Source: Alphaproteobacteria bacterium (GTDB taxonomy: Bacteria > Pseudomonadota > Alphaproteobacteria > Rickettsiales > JABCZZ01). Taken from it: a stretch of DNA of 55,915 nt. The notes under the pieces are model-generated. The model was given only the letters and a program-made list of their open reading frames with translations, did not search any database and was not told the DNA's origin. The position numbers and the translations under genes were made by a program. Shown here piece by piece: positions 8,873 to 28,965 of the stretch. The stretch lies in assembly GCA_013288335.1 (NCBI GenBank), contig JABDCC010000008.1, positions 1-55,915 of the forward strand. The letters are read 5' to 3'. Each line of letters starts with the position of its first letter. Position 1 is the stretch's first letter.

Positions 8873-8974
8873 AAATTTTAATAAATAGTTGAACCTGTAA
8901 TTATAATATATATAGTGGTTTCGCGTGGGATACTTACTACATATATTACTCAAATTAGAAAAAGGCAGTATAAA

Positions 8975-10972
8975 TTGCATAATAACGCAATTCAAAAGTT
9001 AACGAACAATCTGAATTTTCTGCGTTTGGGTACGCTTATTGTAGCTGCTTCTTTACTGCTTGCTGGCTGTAGTACTATGGGCAGTATAGGTGAATCTTTT
9101 GATCGTATGAAATCTGGTGATGACAAACATCTGGATAATATAGATCCTTACCAGAATCTGTCGCGTGACGATTACCGACATATGAGTGCGCCAAAAAGTG
9201 ATGGCGAACCTAAATTACAGATAGATAAATCCGCGCCTCCTATTCCCAAGCTGGCCGAGATTTTGGCAGCTCCACGCCCACCTAAAATAGGTGAGACGCA
9301 AATTGTTTCCATCTCTGTAACGGACGATGTTCCGCTGAAAGATGCGTTGCTGGAGCTTGCCAAACTTGCTGATATTGACATAGAGCTCGATGCTAACATT
9401 ACCGGTGGAATAAATTTTGTCGCAAAAGATAAACCGTTTAATGAGGTAATTGATCGAATCGCAAATCTTGCAGGTCTGCGTTATACTATGAAGGGTGGCG
9501 TGCTCAGGGTTGAAATGGATACGCCTTATATACAAAGCTATCCGGTCGATTTCTTAAACGTGGATCGTGACAGTGACAGCTCTGTTATGGTCGATACAAA
9601 TCTCGCTGCTGGAAAAGGTGGCGCTCCTACTGCCGGTGGCGGTAGTAGTGGTAGTAGCTCTAGCAGCAGTACAAATGGTTCCACTTCCTCCATAAAAACC
9701 AAATCTGCCGGGGATTTCTGGAAGTCTATGGAAATAGGTGTTCAGCAAATACTGGGTTATCAGGAATCCCCTCTGGTTTCTGAGACTACTTCCCAGGCAC
9801 AGATGCTTGCTTCTTCTGTAAATACTCCCGAAAATGGCGCCGTAGCGGGTGCAGCCGCAGCGGCTCCTGTCGCGCCAAAAGCATCTGCAGCACCAGCCCC
9901 TGCCGGAGCTCCTGTTGCGGCAACGGCAACTGGGTCGGGTCCTAAATACACACTGAACAAACAAGCCGGCGTTTTGACTGTCGATGCCACAGCCAAGCAA
10001 CATGATCTTATAAAACTCTTTCTTACTGAATTGCGAAAGACCGCTTCAGCGCAGGTTCTGATTGAGGCTAAAATTATTGAGGTGGATCTTAATGACCAAT
10101 ATGCCAGCGGCATAAACTGGAGCGCCATCAGCGTAGGAGCTGGCATTGGTACTATTACCACTTCCGCAGCGATTGGGACGCCAGGGTCTCTTGCCGGTTC
10201 AACCTTTAATGATTTACAAGATGCTTTCTCGCTAACAACGAGTAATAATCCTAACAATATTTTAAATATGCTGGAGCAGTTTGGTACTGCGCGTACACTT
10301 TCAAGCCCAAGACTTCATGCGGTGAATAACCAGCTTTCGACACTCACATTTACTACCAATCATGTATATTTTACCATTCAGGTGACACCCGGAACCGTTA
10401 CGCCAGGCACAGCAGGAGGGGCGGCAACTGTGACTCCTCCGGCCTTTACTTCTACGGTCAACACCGTGCCACTTGGTATATTGATGTCAATTATGCCTTC
10501 GGTTGATTTGGATAATAATGAAGTCACTTTGTCAGTGCGTCCGACTTTAACTACTTTTATTAAAGATGTAACGGATCCGGCGTTTGATCTTGAAGCTTTG
10601 CTCACTGCCACGGGCGCTACTGCATCAGTTACTGATCCAAAAATTATATCCGCAATACTTGCCACGCATAACGAAGTGCCGGAAATTGAGGTGCGCGAAC
10701 TTGATTCTACTGTCAAACTTAAAAGTGGTCAGACCATGGTTATCGGTGGTTTAATGCAACAGGAGTCACAGAACATGGACACAGGCGTTCCATTTGTGAG
10801 TGGAATTCCAGTGGTAGGAAATATTTTTAAAAGTGTCGCAAAATCCGCTCATAACAAAGAACTTGTACTACTTATCAAGGCAACGATTGTAGATACACGT
10901 GGTTCTCTTAGCAATACGGACAAAAATATCTTCCATAAATTCTCGGATGATCCGCGTCCCGTATCTTTTTAA
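8975..10972 (+). CDS. Secretin-family outer-membrane lipoprotein (MshL/PilQ/GspD-like)
   Basis: About 665 residues from a TTG at 8975, preferred because AAAGGCAG lies a few bases upstream; a GTG at 8915 without a ribosome site would add 20. The start is a lipoprotein signal with lipobox LLAGC. Roughly residues 105-185 form an STN/N0-like domain, 210-245 a Gly/Ser linker, 287-323 an Ala/Pro linker, and 430-645 the secretin channel domain (VLIEAKIIEV, a SSPRLHAVNNQ loop, VKLKSGQTMVIGGLM, GIPVVGNIF). Secretins form outer-membrane gates for type IV pili, type II secretion or phage export. No inner-membrane platform or ATPase gene is adjacent, so the machine it serves is unknown. It heads a cluster with the next three genes. 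Confidence 0.85.
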   Translation: MHNNAIQKLTNNLNFLRLGTLIVAASLLLAGCSTMGSIGESFDRMKSGDDKHLDNIDPYQNLSRDDYRHMSAPKSDGEPKLQIDKSAPPIPKLAEILAAPRPPKIGETQIVSISVTDDVPLKDALLELAKLADIDIELDANITGGINFVAKDKPFNEVIDRIANLAGLRYTMKGGVLRVEMDTPYIQSYPVDFLNVDRDSDSSVMVDTNLAAGKGGAPTAGGGSSGSSSSSSTNGSTSSIKTKSAGDFWKSMEIGVQQILGYQESPLVSETTSQAQMLASSVNTPENGAVAGAAAAAPVAPKASAAPAPAGAPVAATATGSGPKYTLNKQAGVLTVDATAKQHDLIKLFLTELRKTASAQVLIEAKIIEVDLNDQYASGINWSAISVGAGIGTITTSAAIGTPGSLAGSTFNDLQDAFSLTTSNNPNNILNMLEQFGTARTLSSPRLHAVNNQLSTLTFTTNHVYFTIQVTPGTVTPGTAGGAATVTPPAFTSTVNTVPLGILMSIMPSVDLDNNEVTLSVRPTLTTFIKDVTDPAFDLEALLTATGATASVTDPKIISAILATHNEVPEIEVRELDSTVKLKSGQTMVIGGLMQQESQNMDTGVPFVSGIPVVGNIFKSVAKSAHNKELVLLIKATIVDTRGSLSNTDKNIFHKFSDDPRPVSF

Positions 10973-11016
10973 ATGGAAAATAACCCGGTTCCACGGGTCG
11001 AAGTAAGGCGTAATCT

Positions 11017-11781
11017 ATGTTAACTAATATTCGTTATATCTTGCTTACGGCACTGCGTGACTGGCTATTTGCTGCGCTCATGATAGGGGTGGTTGCCTGC
11101 ACGCTCGTTGCTTATATGTTGGGCAGCATCGCGCTTATTGAGACTCAGGAAATGACGCTTGCCTACACCAGTGCATCCACGCGCGTGATTATCATCGTTG
11201 GTCTTATCATATTTACCTGCTTCCATGTGCGTAGTGCGTTTGACACTAAAGAGATTGACGTTTTTCTGTCGCGCCCGATTACGCGTTCCAATCTGGTACT
11301 TTCCTACTGGCTTGGATTTTCTGCCGTTGCTTTGTTGCTCGTCATACCAACGGTTGCACTTATTGCGGTTCAAGGTGTGCTGAACTGGCACGGATTCTTT
11401 TTCTGGGCAGCGAGCTTGCTGATTGAATGTCTGCTGGTCGTGGCGATAGCGCTGTTTGCTTCCTTTACTCTCAAAAGCGCAGTAACTTCCGTGATGGCAA
11501 GTATGGGGTTCTACATATTCGCACGCATGATGGGATTTTTTGTGGCAACTTCAGAATCATCCTACATATTTGGCAAACATTGGATTAATATTGCTCTTAT
11601 TTATATGTTAAATTTTATTTCCATTATAATGCCTCGTCTCGATTTTTTCTCGAAAAGTGATTGGCTTATTTATGGAGTAAAAAATATTGAGGACTTAAAG
11701 CTATTTACCATTCAGGCTGCGGTGTATGTTCCGCTGCTTATTTTTGCTACTATCGTTGATTTCCGCCGCAAACAATTTTGA
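11017..11781 (+). CDS. ABC-2-type transporter permease (no ATPase adjacent)
   Basis: A 254-residue integral membrane protein with about six hydrophobic spans. The segment RSAFDTKEIDVFLSRPITRS, between spans two and three, and the overall layout resemble ABC-2 permeases that normally pair with an ATP-binding subunit. No ATPase gene lies in this cluster or elsewhere in the window. It follows the secretin by 44 bases, a spacer with a small hairpin (ACCCG/CGGGT), and precedes the next gene by 5 bases. The substrate is unknown. Confidence 0.7.
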   Translation: MLTNIRYILLTALRDWLFAALMIGVVACTLVAYMLGSIALIETQEMTLAYTSASTRVIIIVGLIIFTCFHVRSAFDTKEIDVFLSRPITRSNLVLSYWLGFSAVALLLVIPTVALIAVQGVLNWHGFFFWAASLLIECLLVVAIALFASFTLKSAVTSVMASMGFYIFARMMGFFVATSESSYIFGKHWINIALIYMLNFISIIMPRLDFFSKSDWLIYGVKNIEDLKLFTIQAAVYVPLLIFATIVDFRRKQF

Positions 11782-11786
11782 TATTT

Positions 11787-12482
11787 ATGAGAAAATTCTT
11801 ACGCAATTATATATTACTGATTGTTTTTGCGGGTCTTCAGCTAGGGTATTGGGATATGACCCGCCAGAAACTTCCCGATATGGGAATTGTACCCGATGTC
11901 CCTGGTAAAGTTGCTGTGAAGGCATTATCATTTGGTGACGAAGAATTTTATTTCCGCCTGCTTGCGCTTGATATTCAGAATGCCGGAGACACATTTGGAC
12001 GCTTTACCGAATTATATAAATACGATTACAAAAAACTTTATGACTGGTTTACTTTGCTCGATACACTCGATAACGAATCGGATTATATGCCATTTATAGC
12101 CAGTTATTATTATAGCCAGACCCAGCATATTCCTGATGTGCGCTATGTGGTCGATTATCTTTATAACCATTCCGCGAGCAGGCCAGCGAGAAAATATTGG
12201 TGGCTGGCACAGGCGGTGTATCTCGCGGAACATAAACTCAACGATAAAGATCTCGCGCTTAAGATGGCATTGCCACTGGAACATGCTGATAACGCACCAT
12301 TCTGGGTGCGCCAGTTGCCGGCGTTTGTGCATGAAAAGCGTGGCGAGATGGAAGATGCCGCTCGCATTATAGAAAATATTGAGGCAAACTCAAAAAACAT
12401 ACCCCCGGGCGAACTGAGGTTCATGGAATATTTTGTGAAAGAACGTACGAAGAAATTGGAAAAATTACAAACAGGTAAGTAA
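11787..12482 (+). CDS. Membrane-anchored or secreted helical (TPR-like) protein
   Basis: A 231-residue protein with an N-terminal hydrophobic segment (LRNYILLIVFAGLQLGYW) that acts as signal anchor or uncleaved signal, then an all-helical part rich in aromatic residues. Paired helices such as ARKYWWLAQAVYLAEHKLND, followed by DLALKMALPLEHA and WVRQLPAFVHEKRGEMEDAA, resemble TPR repeats. I start at the ATG at 11787 rather than the TTG at 11778 that overlaps the permease stop. With the permease 5 bases before and the regulator 1 base after, it is clearly in one operon. A periplasmic scaffold role is inference only. Confidence 0.6.
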   Translation: MRKFLRNYILLIVFAGLQLGYWDMTRQKLPDMGIVPDVPGKVAVKALSFGDEEFYFRLLALDIQNAGDTFGRFTELYKYDYKKLYDWFTLLDTLDNESDYMPFIASYYYSQTQHIPDVRYVVDYLYNHSASRPARKYWWLAQAVYLAEHKLNDKDLALKMALPLEHADNAPFWVRQLPAFVHEKRGEMEDAARIIENIEANSKNIPPGELRFMEYFVKERTKKLEKLQTGK

Positions 12483-12483
12483 G

Positions 12484-13566
12484 ATGGACACAACAATTCT
12501 TTCTTGGTATCAGGCATTGCAATTACTGGCTCTTGGGCCATGCCTTTTCATGATATTCTTTTTATGTGTTACGGCTCGCCATCCAAGCAAAGTAATTGTC
12601 CCGGCGCTTTATTTTCTCTCGCTTTCCTGCAGTTTTCTTTTGCCACTTACCGATGCGCTTGGGCTTGGTACTAGAATTCATGGCGTATTATTTATGGGTG
12701 AAAGCCTTACCCCGGCTTTAAGTTTTCTGCTGATTATACAGTTTATCACTGGCAATATACCCTCGCTTATTTACTGGAGCATTCTCGCAGTTCCGCTGGT
12801 GGGCGGTAGTTCTATTATCTATGCCATGTTAATTTCAAAAGGCGAAGTGTGCCTCGGTGATAATATATGTACTGGTGCCGTTGTATTTAAGACTCTTTAT
12901 GAAATATTCAGTGCTTCGCTTACTTTCCTGTTAACGGTCATCATCTATCACCGCCTGATGCTGGAAGTGGACAATAATTCCAGCGAACGCAAGAATAAGT
13001 ATGCACTTATTATAGCACTTATCATGCTCAATTTGAGCTTGCTTGCCATTGAGCTTTTGCAGATAAGCGGTCATGTGCAGGCCGACAGCGCAGATAATGC
13101 TATCACTGTAGTGCGCATAGGATTTATCTATCTGGTGCTGACCTCTTTCTTCCGCGTATTTGATCATTCGGTGGAAATTGATTTTGAGCGCGTTCCCACT
13201 ATCAAACCTGTTGGCCCGTCGCCGCGTGATATGCAGCTTGCAGATAATATCCGCAAACTTCTGGCGGATGATAAAATTTATCGCTCGATGGATTTAAACC
13301 GCGATAGCTTAGCGAAGAAACTGGCAGTTACTGAGAATCAGTTGTCGCGCGTGATAAACCAATGTTTTCAGCAAAACTTCAGTATGCTGGTTAATCAGCG
13401 CCGCGTTGAAGAAGCGAAGGAAAGACTCAGCAAAGAGAAAACTGCAATCACGGTCATTGCGTTTGAGGTGGGCTTTAGCAGTATTCCCTCGTTTAACCGA
13501 GTGTTTAAGGCATTCTCTGGGGTGTCGCCTACGGAATACCGCAGCAAAAATTCCGCAGGCACCTGA
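12484..13566 (+). CDS. AraC-family regulator with membrane-embedded N-terminal half
   Basis: A 360-residue protein. The first 215 residues hold about seven hydrophobic spans. The last 110 residues form an AraC-type DNA-binding domain: first helix-turn-helix around SLAKKLAVTENQLSRVIN, then the conserved second half with RVEEAKERLSKEKTAITVIA, FEVGFSSIPSFNRVFKAFSG and VSPTEYR. Such proteins probably sense a membrane or periplasmic signal and bind DNA from the membrane. It starts 1 base after the previous stop and is the last gene of the secretin cluster, so it may regulate that cluster (inference). Its stop abuts convergent panB with no spacer. Confidence 0.85.
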   Translation: MDTTILSWYQALQLLALGPCLFMIFFLCVTARHPSKVIVPALYFLSLSCSFLLPLTDALGLGTRIHGVLFMGESLTPALSFLLIIQFITGNIPSLIYWSILAVPLVGGSSIIYAMLISKGEVCLGDNICTGAVVFKTLYEIFSASLTFLLTVIIYHRLMLEVDNNSSERKNKYALIIALIMLNLSLLAIELLQISGHVQADSADNAITVVRIGFIYLVLTSFFRVFDHSVEIDFERVPTIKPVGPSPRDMQLADNIRKLLADDKIYRSMDLNRDSLAKKLAVTENQLSRVINQCFQQNFSMLVNQRRVEEAKERLSKEKTAITVIAFEVGFSSIPSFNRVFKAFSGVSPTEYRSKNSAGT

Positions 13567-16070: not shown

Positions 16071-16634
16071 ATGCTGGTTATAAGTGTAATTCTGACCTTT
16101 CTCATTATCACGGTAATGATTACTGATATTACGCGGTTTATTATTCCCAACAAGTTTGTTTTAGTCATATTGCTGCTCTATCCGGTGATGGTGTATATCG
16201 CTCCGGTAAAGCCAGACTGGCAGTTTGCGCTTATGGTGGCGGCGGCAGCTTTTATTGTTGGGTTTATCCTTTTTGCACTTAAAGTGATGGGTGGTGGTGA
16301 TGTCAAATTACTGGCGGTTACCTCGCTCTATGTGAATCACACCGATTTTCTTGATTTTATAGTAGGCGTCGCAATATTCGGCGGTTTACTTTCCATTATA
16401 TTGATAATCATTCGTCCGCTTATCGTTTATATTTTCTCAAGACTTGGGAAATCCATAGAATCAGTACCGCGTGTACTCACAGTAAATGCACCTTTGCCGT
16501 ATGGCCTTGCTATCGGCACGGCATTCTTGGTGTTACTCTGGAGTGGCGAAATCAACGGCATAGATATTTTAGGCAATGCCAGGGACAATATGTATCTTAC
16601 CAGCCCCCACCCAGACTCTTATAAACCGCAATGA
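16071..16634 (+). CDS. A24-family prepilin peptidase (CpaA/TadV-like)
   Basis: A 187-residue membrane protein with about five spans. It has both aspartates of A24 peptidases: Asp19 in MITDITRFIIPN and Asp77 in the GGGDVKLLA motif. It lacks the N-terminal methylase domain of PilD, as expected for the short CpaA/TadV class that cleaves Flp-type or related prepilins. GAGGGG precedes the ATG. No pilin, ATPase or platform gene lies nearby; the only other pilus-like component in the window is the secretin at 8975. Its 3' end overlaps the convergent nodT-like gene by 38 bases. Confidence 0.85.
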   Translation: MLVISVILTFLIITVMITDITRFIIPNKFVLVILLLYPVMVYIAPVKPDWQFALMVAAAAFIVGFILFALKVMGGGDVKLLAVTSLYVNHTDFLDFIVGVAIFGGLLSIILIIIRPLIVYIFSRLGKSIESVPRVLTVNAPLPYGLAIGTAFLVLLWSGEINGIDILGNARDNMYLTSPHPDSYKPQ

Positions 16635-25382: not shown

Positions 25383-25404
25383 ATAAATAAGAACTGGCTT
25401 AGAA

Positions 25405-25522
25405 GGCTTGGCAGCGACCTACTCTCCCAAGACTTAAGTCTTAGTACCATTGGCGCGGAGCGTTTTCACGGTCGTGTTCGGGATGGGAACGTGTGTTTCC
25501 CACTCGCAATAACCACCAAGCC
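25405..25522 (-). rRNA. rrf: 5S ribosomal RNA
   Basis: The reverse strand reads GGCTTGGTGGTTATTGCGAG at the 5' end and GAGAGTAGGTCGCTGCCAAG near the 3' end; the two ends pair to form helix I. The conserved CCCATCCCGAACACG loop and GGTACTAAGACTTAAGTCTT segment are present. Length is about 118 bases. Ends are set by the terminal helix and may be off by a few bases. Confidence 0.95.
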
Positions 25523-25667
25523 ATCAAAGCCAGCTCTTATTCACATAAAGTGAACAGGTTTATTCTGATAATTTAGATGCACAAGAATTAAATAGTTAAT
25601 GTGCCACCAACTCAATAACTTTACCATTTTTTGCACTACATGCAATGTAAGCAGTATATAAAGTAAA
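25523..25667 (-). other. 23S-5S internal spacer
   Basis: About 145 bases between 23S and 5S, with no tRNA gene. Part of it (25599-25659) forms the 3' arm of the 23S processing stem. The rest is AT-rich with no other structure that I can see. Confidence 0.7.
25599..25659 (-). other. 3' arm of the 23S rRNA processing stem
   Basis: The + strand here reads ATGTGCCAC, then ATTTTTTGCACTACATGCAA and TGTAAG. The - strand leader of 23S (28506-28571) reads ATGTGCCAC, then ATTTTTTGCTCTGCATGTAG and TGTAAG. The two transcribed regions are therefore complementary across 23S, with an inner duplex of about 25 bp containing G-U pairs and an outer block of 9 bp. Such stems are RNase III substrates in pre-23S rRNA. 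Confidence 0.75.
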
Positions 25668-28470
<2,803 letters not shown>

Positions 28471-28475
28471 CGCAA

Positions 28476-28491
28476 ATGTTCAAAGAACACT
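28476..28491 (-). promoter_or_regulatory. boxA-like antitermination site
   Basis: The reverse strand reads GTGTTCTTTGAACATT just before 23S, close to the rRNA boxA consensus (TGCTCTTTAACA). boxA loads the Nus antitermination complex. Its place directly before 23S matches the second boxA of ordinary 16S-23S spacers, so it may be a remnant of a linked operon. Confidence 0.55.
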
Positions 28492-28505
28492 TACGTCTTG
28501 AGATA

Positions 28506-28571
28506 CTTATCTTACACTACATGCAGAGCAAAAAATTGTTCTGCACATAATTAAAGAGTTATGTGGCACAT
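28506..28571 (-). other. 5' arm of the 23S rRNA processing stem
   Basis: Complementary partner of 25599-25659 described above. It also holds a local hairpin: TGTGCAGAACAATTTTTTGC followed by TCTGCATG, in which GTGCAGA pairs with TCTGCAT. Confidence 0.7.
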
Positions 28572-28755
28572 TATTTTAATCAGCATCAACTCTTATGAAT
28601 TAGAATTTTTAATGTTTTGTCCACGAAGTCATCACACTTCGCAAAGCAAAACCTTCTAAAAAATAAGGGTTTTATCAGAAAAACCTATTCACAATATCTC
28701 ACAGCAGGTTCACACAGATAGACGTGCGAACACACCTTCTTTCGAAGGGAGGACA

Positions 28756-28784
28756 TTCATAGCGACACCCCCCATGAGTGTCAA
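28756..28784 (-). promoter_or_regulatory. Promoter of the 23S-5S unit
   Basis: On the reverse strand, TTGACA (28779-28784) is followed 17 bases later by TATGAA (28756-28761). An A/T-rich tract with runs of A lies immediately upstream, like the UP elements of strong rRNA promoters. Transcription would start near 28749, giving a leader of about 280 bases before 23S. It is divergent from the candidate clpS promoter. Confidence 0.7.
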
Positions 28785-28792
28785 CAACGATT

Positions 28793-28821
28793 TTGATTTT
28801 TTTTAACGGTTATTTTATATT
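28793..28821 (+). promoter_or_regulatory. Candidate clpS promoter
   Basis: TTGATT at 28793-28798 and TATATT at 28816-28821 are 17 bases apart, upstream of clpS and back to back with the rRNA promoter. The A/T tract between the two promoters could serve both. The predicted leader is about 140 bases; 28822-28965 shows no gene. Confidence 0.45.
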
Positions 28822-28965
28822 CGTGTTAATATGTCGCAACTGGCGGATTTGCTAGGGTTGCTGAGATCACGTATTTTGTCGCTCGTAATATTTTTCACAA
28901 AATAAGCATAAAGCGTGCGTAAGTTTTTTTACAAAAACCCGAATAATTGCTATATACACTATGGC

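Follow-up and report, generated by a model that had tools for sequence, protein, structure and literature searches.

What does a secretin gene do beside the genes for an ATP-binding cassette (ABC) permease, a tetratricopeptide repeat (TPR)-like protein and a membrane-embedded AraC-type regulator? This question is raised by a 55,915-nucleotide stretch of a Rickettsiales genome (contig JABDCC010000008.1 of assembly GCA_013288335.1; hereafter the window), in which these four genes follow each other on the same strand:

8975..10972, + strand: secretin, MshL-like type IV pilus secretin, TTG start
11017..11781, + strand: permease, ABC-2-type with NosY-like fold, 254 amino acids, 44 bases after the secretin
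11787..12482, + strand: TPR-like protein, 231 amino acids, 5 bases after the permease and its constant partner
12484..13566, + strand: AraC-family regulator, 1 base after the TPR-like gene

A first reading of the window (the original prediction) had placed the four genes in one cluster with gaps of 44, 5 and 1 bases, and both coordinates and gaps proved right. It had also stated that an ABC ATPase and the platform proteins of a pilus or type II secretion system were absent. Both absences hold within the window but not for the genome (G000), which encodes PilB, PilT and PilU and carries, on contig C12, a second operon in the order pilC-pilMN-pilO-pilP-ABC ATPase:

G000:C12:9434-10168: ABC ATPase, 244 amino acids, last gene of the pilC-pilMN-pilO-pilP operon

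It is thus likely that the window encodes the outer-membrane half of a type IV pilus machine whose genes are dispersed over the genome; this machine would have its own ABC transporter, the ATPase of which is encoded in this second operon. In textbook accounts, type IV pili draw their power from PilB and PilT. The originally proposed envelope export or assembly module with an ATPase encoded elsewhere survives in outline, as the ATPase lies in a pil operon and has an orthologue in 17/17 relatives; its supposed lack of platform proteins and of any matching system does not, since a type IV pilus equipped with an ABC transporter is analogous to PilGHI of Myxococcus.

Three of the four family assignments were borne out by curated models. 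The secretin matched PF00263 (E 2e-28, 99.6 bits versus a cut-off of 27.5), as expected of an outer-membrane secretin, and also matched Secretin_N_2 (PF07655, E 3e-8). Its top curated model was MshL (TIGR02519; 2.2e-59, 200.9 bits); with a cut-off of 250.2, membership of the MshL equivalog was rejected. The TTG start at 8975 was the choice of the original prediction, and a GTG at 8915 is also possible. Cys32 in an LAGC lipobox is invariant across 18 aligned sequences, and the secretin is a predicted outer-membrane lipoprotein. The permease matched ABC2_membrane_2 (PF12679; E 2.3e-7, 30.8 bits, cut-off 27.2) and is strongly conserved, with a mean column identity of 74% across 16 relatives. For the regulator, a C-terminal HTH_18 domain (E 1.7e-20, 73.5 bits versus 33.6) supports the AraC family, and hydropathy indicated about seven hydrophobic segments N-terminal of this helix-turn-helix. 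Searches of the third gene product against Pfam and NCBIfam gave no match, including none to a Pfam TPR family, and its structural matches in the PDB were weak (E 0.04 or more), so that it is TPR-like by predicted fold only. In its AlphaFold model, a helix at the N terminus leads into a body of helical repeats, and the product is therefore read as a membrane-anchored, probably periplasmic TPR-like protein.

The remainder of a pilus machine is spread over the genome of 1.47 Mb (67 contigs). PilB, on contig C2 (L034:6759-8543), matched T2SSE with 397.8 bits and carries an MshEN domain, and the PilC-like platform protein matched T2SSF with 169 bits, as expected of an assembly ATPase and its platform, although neither reached the PilB, GspE or GspF equivalog cut-offs. 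PilT and PilU, encoded on contig C1, scored 475.5 and 403.7 bits with the retraction ATPase model TIGR01420 (cut-off 319.1). The PilM/PilN-like protein of the C12 operon (545 amino acids) looks like a fused PilMN; it had no significant Pfam or PDB-profile match, its sole hint being a weak match to PilN (E 0.37). The ABC ATPase behind it has top model matches of the DrrA/GldA type. Prepilins with a class III signal are represented by 17 N_methyl matches, 16 of them over the cut-off. As regards a prepilin peptidase, only a short A24 peptidase in the window (16071-16634) was seen, no full search having been made. Of the parts that the original prediction had suggested looking for, PilB/PilT and an orphan ATPase were found, and candidates for PilM-P have the expected position and topology.

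Do these genes instead encode a type II secretion system? The assembly ATPase and PilC do score slightly higher with the GspE and GspF models than with those of PilB and PilC, yet all of these scores lie under the curated cut-offs, and the GspD, GspE and GspF equivalogs were not reached (97.9/351, 499.5/630 and 296/424, respectively), so that type II membership was rejected. As PilT and PilU exceed their cut-off and are encoded beside the system in relatives, and as many long prepilins are present, we regard a type II system as very improbable.

Several further observations concern these pilus genes. The prepilins are mostly ~300 amino acids long, have near-identical N-termini and are scattered over many contigs (for example C12:2786-2857, C20:6347-6424 and C1:16116-16196), amounting to a large pilin repertoire. 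The PilB-like ATPase passes the curated cut-off for a cyclic diguanylate (c-di-GMP)-binding motif domain (59.5 versus 38 bits), so pilus extension may be under c-di-GMP control. Directly before pilT-pilU on C1, and in the same place in many relatives, lies a gene for a 641-amino acid proline-rich protein with C-terminal TPRs (L035:4441-6366). The genus also has a second, closely related permease copy (L128:5582-7365 on G000:C20; L126:7143-7961 on G321:C6), which in G000 is divergent from a prepilin gene and has no TPR partner. Other secretion-type ATPases are encoded on contigs C13, C18, C31 and C41, and two further secretins on C7 and C41.

A gene-neighbourhood check drew on 17 relatives from a permease scan of 84,980 species genomes, all of them metagenome-assembled genomes labelled Alphaproteobacteria, Rickettsiales or Pseudomonadota. 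The distance from the end of the secretin gene to the permease was 1-45 bp in 17/17, and the TPR gene directly followed the permease in all 15 relatives with a long enough contig. A nearby AraC gene was found in seven of the 17, close behind the TPR gene in L016, L017, L028 and L031 and farther away in L018, L020 and L021. Among the others, contigs were too short or AraC was not seen, apart from those discussed below. Genes flanking the block differ between clades, and those flanking it in the window, UbiA and PanB, are unrelated. In L019, L022 and L031, the gene immediately before the secretin is peptidase-like and was identified by eye as a prepilin peptidase.

The C12 ATPase proved constant as well. 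An orthologue was present in all 17 permease-bearing relatives at 60-79% identity, with the next-best ABC ATPase at ~34%, and its catalytic motifs are invariant in the alignment. It directly follows the PilP-like gene in 16/17; in the remaining genome (G002), a fragment lies at a contig edge beside pilP. Among 385 alphaproteobacteria, 13 had a match to the permease profile and 11 to the ATPase profile (E <= 1e-60); 10 had both, three only the permease, one only the ATPase and 371 neither. Tallied by family, seven had both, three the permease only and none the ATPase only. A survey of 398 Pseudomonadota gave 21 genomes with both, five with the permease only, seven with the ATPase only and 365 with neither, the permease homologues being weaker outside the class. 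The corresponding Fisher p values (1.8e-16 for the class, 1.6e-24 for Pseudomonadota) overstate significance because the counts are inflated by kinship of the genomes. Physical linkage, in contrast, is seen directly: in 14 of the 18 non-alphaproteobacterial genomes with both genes, permease and ATPase lie on one contig, 0.8-13.3 kb apart.

Beyond the close relatives, the complete system was found in one piece. Three genomes of one family (G153, G254 and G336) encode it in a single 15-gene, one-strand locus in the order pilB-pilC-pilMN-pilO-pilP-ATPase-TPR protein-pilD-pilT-pilU-secretin-permease-TPR-AraC-prepilin; the pilD of locus L112 is a peptidase-like gene recognised by eye. In G033 (L115), likewise on one strand, secretin-permease-TPR-AraC is followed by prepilin-pilB-pilC-pilMN-pilO-pilP-ATPase, and G245 and G355 carry secretin-permease-TPR-AraC-prepilin. 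An apparent permease-TPR fusion in G033 was ruled out, as they are adjacent genes read in different frames. Since contiguous one-strand loci exist in other alphaproteobacteria, the best reading of the window cluster is as a fragment of a locus of this kind that later became dispersed. AraC stands between TPR and prepilin in L112-L115, L123 and L124, which suggests that it is a genuine, though often lost, member of the system. The TPR gene was next to or beside the permease in 10/10 permease loci of the class and in 8/10 loci read in other Pseudomonadota, several of which include PilB, PilC, PilMN or prepilins.

These data leave little room for the alternative offered in the original prediction, that a pilus secretin and an unrelated transport operon are adjacent by chance. 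The unrelated flanking genes UbiA and PanB, which vary between relatives, would fit it. However, the 17/17 secretin-permease linkage, the single contiguous loci in distant genomes and the position of the ATPase inside a pil operon rule it out for practical purposes, and we give it hardly any credence. Relatives in which the genes are consistently apart, named by the original prediction as telling against the cluster, were not what we found, nor were a convincing promoter and terminator detected between secretin and permease. A pattern search found no promoter-like site on the + strand beginning inside the 44-bp gap, and on this strand the single hairpin there (5 bp) has no T-run. Inside the secretin end, 13 bp before the gene end, is a weak + strand terminator-like match (10945-10959, five pairs), in a region where such matches barely exceed chance (nine found, 5.1 expected). 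Promoter-like sites, too, were hardly commoner there than chance predicts (14 found, 10.4 expected); they include the following:

8878..8916, + strand: candidate sigma-70-type promoter(s) upstream of the secretin, weak TTAATA-18-TATAAT and TTGAAC-16-TATAGT pattern matches

Several observations weigh against a dedicated pilus transporter in the form proposed here. The genome is 67% complete, and the names PilMN, PilO and PilP derive from position and topology, with zero Pfam matches. AraC is absent beside the TPR gene in L022, L024-L026 and L032, and the permease-TPR pair stands apart from the secretin in G019 and G067. As regards a matching phylogeny of the ATPase, which the original prediction had sought, the mirror-tree correlation with the permease (r 0.84) is uninformative, being no higher than for other pil genes, with a partial r of 0.29 given PilMN. 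Lastly, sister pilus loci with lower-scoring secretins (L131, L135 and L136) have no permease or ATPase of these families nearby, and the transporter would therefore be inessential to this pilus type. Because the ten highest-scoring secretin matches of the class are all in permease genomes and these sister loci lack the transporter, the transporter marks a subclass of these pili.

How might such a machine work? The parts, their order and linkage, and the co-occurrence of permease and ATPase are evident from the genomes. From these we infer that permease, ATPase and TPR protein form one complex, an ABC-2 transporter dedicated to the pilus. The secretin would provide the channel for the pilus, PilB would extend the fibre and PilT/PilU would retract it. 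In the simplest proposal, the transporter would have a PilGHI-like role, and the TPR protein would receive pilins or another pilus part from it and pass them on to the site of assembly near the secretin. Analogy suggests that pilin export or pilus assembly requires this complex, in which the TPR protein would serve as periplasmic hand-over or docking element between transporter and pilin or secretin; we place this step slightly below an even chance. The seven-transmembrane AraC protein would probably sense an envelope signal and switch the pilus genes, coupling such a signal to pilus expression.

The transporter might instead use ATP for mechanical work on a periplasmic partner (the secretin, a pilotin-like TPR protein or the pilus base) and export nothing, as proposed for NosDFY. 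This is the main rival to pilin export. TPR proteins are frequent helpers in the assembly of pili and secretins, and in the close relatives the permease and TPR genes go with the secretin gene and not with a pilin gene. Moreover, NosY is the top solved-structure match of the permease model (mean pLDDT 78; template modelling (TM) score 0.73). However, at 13-15% identity this likeness is at the level of the fold, several other ABC-2 exporters match in the same PDB search, and the permease-TPR pair adjoins prepilin genes in other Pseudomonadota. We consider mechanical work unlikely, if a serious contender.

Less likely still is a transporter that is merely co-regulated with the pilus and exports another pilus-associated product such as an exopolysaccharide, a lipid or an adhesin. 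ABC-2 permeases often are polysaccharide or lipid exporters. In Myxococcus, pilGHI mutants also lack exopolysaccharide (PMC5544727), but a pilB mutation suppresses this loss, a hint of signalling (PMC3724824). Among the genes beside the permease in the 17 relatives, none for a glycosyltransferase or for export recurred, which makes polysaccharide or lipid export less likely. Returning to a transporter that serves the pilus itself, we tentatively propose a widespread, as yet undescribed subclass of Pseudomonadota type IV pili, in which an ABC transporter with a periplasmic TPR arm would be built into the machine as a third energy source besides PilB and PilT; it would load pilins or power assembly at the secretin and be controlled by an AraC sensor embedded in the membrane. 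In this full form, we regard the proposal as less likely than not.

Two features of the window stand apart from the cluster. The short A24-family prepilin peptidase at 16071-16634 (+ strand, 187 amino acids, PF01478) is probably TadV-like. At about 25400-28900, 3.5 kb are nearly free of open reading frames (ORFs) save for a 147-amino acid ORF that resembles the usual rRNA shadow ORF, possibly marking a 23S rRNA gene.

Among known systems, the MSHA pilus shares two features: MshL is the best secretin model and the assembly ATPase carries an MshEN domain. In contrast, the secretin remains under the MshL equivalog cut-off, and the present system includes genes for PilT and PilU. The classical msh locus is not known to include an ABC transporter. 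The likeness to NosDFY lies in the permease fold, whereas sequence identity is low and the partners are pilus genes and not nitrous oxide reductase genes. AraC-family genes are also linked to type IV pilus loci in the case of ToxT and PerA; both of these are cytoplasmic, whereas the regulator described here has about seven transmembrane segments. Basal Rickettsiales, which include Mitibacteraceae and Athabascaceae, are reported to have type IV pili (PMC9352585, PMC10847448), with an additional Tad system in Mitibacteraceae (PMC9352585), and the parts of these accounts available to us do not mention an ABC transporter. The genome of the window, for its part, has additional matches to secretion ATPases, a small A24 peptidase and two further secretins, which implies no placement in that family. 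We found no paper on this ABC-pilus arrangement in alphaproteobacteria in the open-access literature, an absence that proves little.

The closest known analogue is PilGHI of Myxococcus xanthus, likened by description and not by sequence, so that the present system is not a proven member. PilG, PilH and PilI are an accessory factor, an ABC ATPase and a permease encoded behind pilA (PMC3924187, PMC3724824, PMC3546991, citing Wu et al. 1998), described as needed for pilus assembly and for PilA export across the inner membrane (PMC3924187, PMC3724824, PMC3546991). An ABC transporter in a pilus system has been discussed mainly for PilGHI, which older literature calls unique to its cluster (quoted in PMC6060248). 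As in Myxococcus, an ABC ATPase (PilH), a permease of ABC-2 size (PilI, at least 250 amino acids) and an accessory protein (PilG) are encoded with pil genes, in the genome of the window over two operons. Whereas the Myxococcus trio follows pilA in one operon, permease and TPR here follow the secretin, and the platform operon closes with the ATPase; there is also a linked membrane AraC and an apparently fused PilMN. In several alphaproteobacterial families and other Pseudomonadota, a comparable partner with an invariably present TPR subunit is linked to genes for the secretin and the platform. This makes the question of how such a transporter acts general and testable, and it offers a rule by which orphan permeases and ATPases of this sort can be annotated. 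Type IV pili with an ABC transporter of their own are already known from Myxococcus; new are the secretin-permease-TPR unit, the transporter split over two operons, the linked seven-transmembrane AraC and the breadth of the system in Pseudomonadota.

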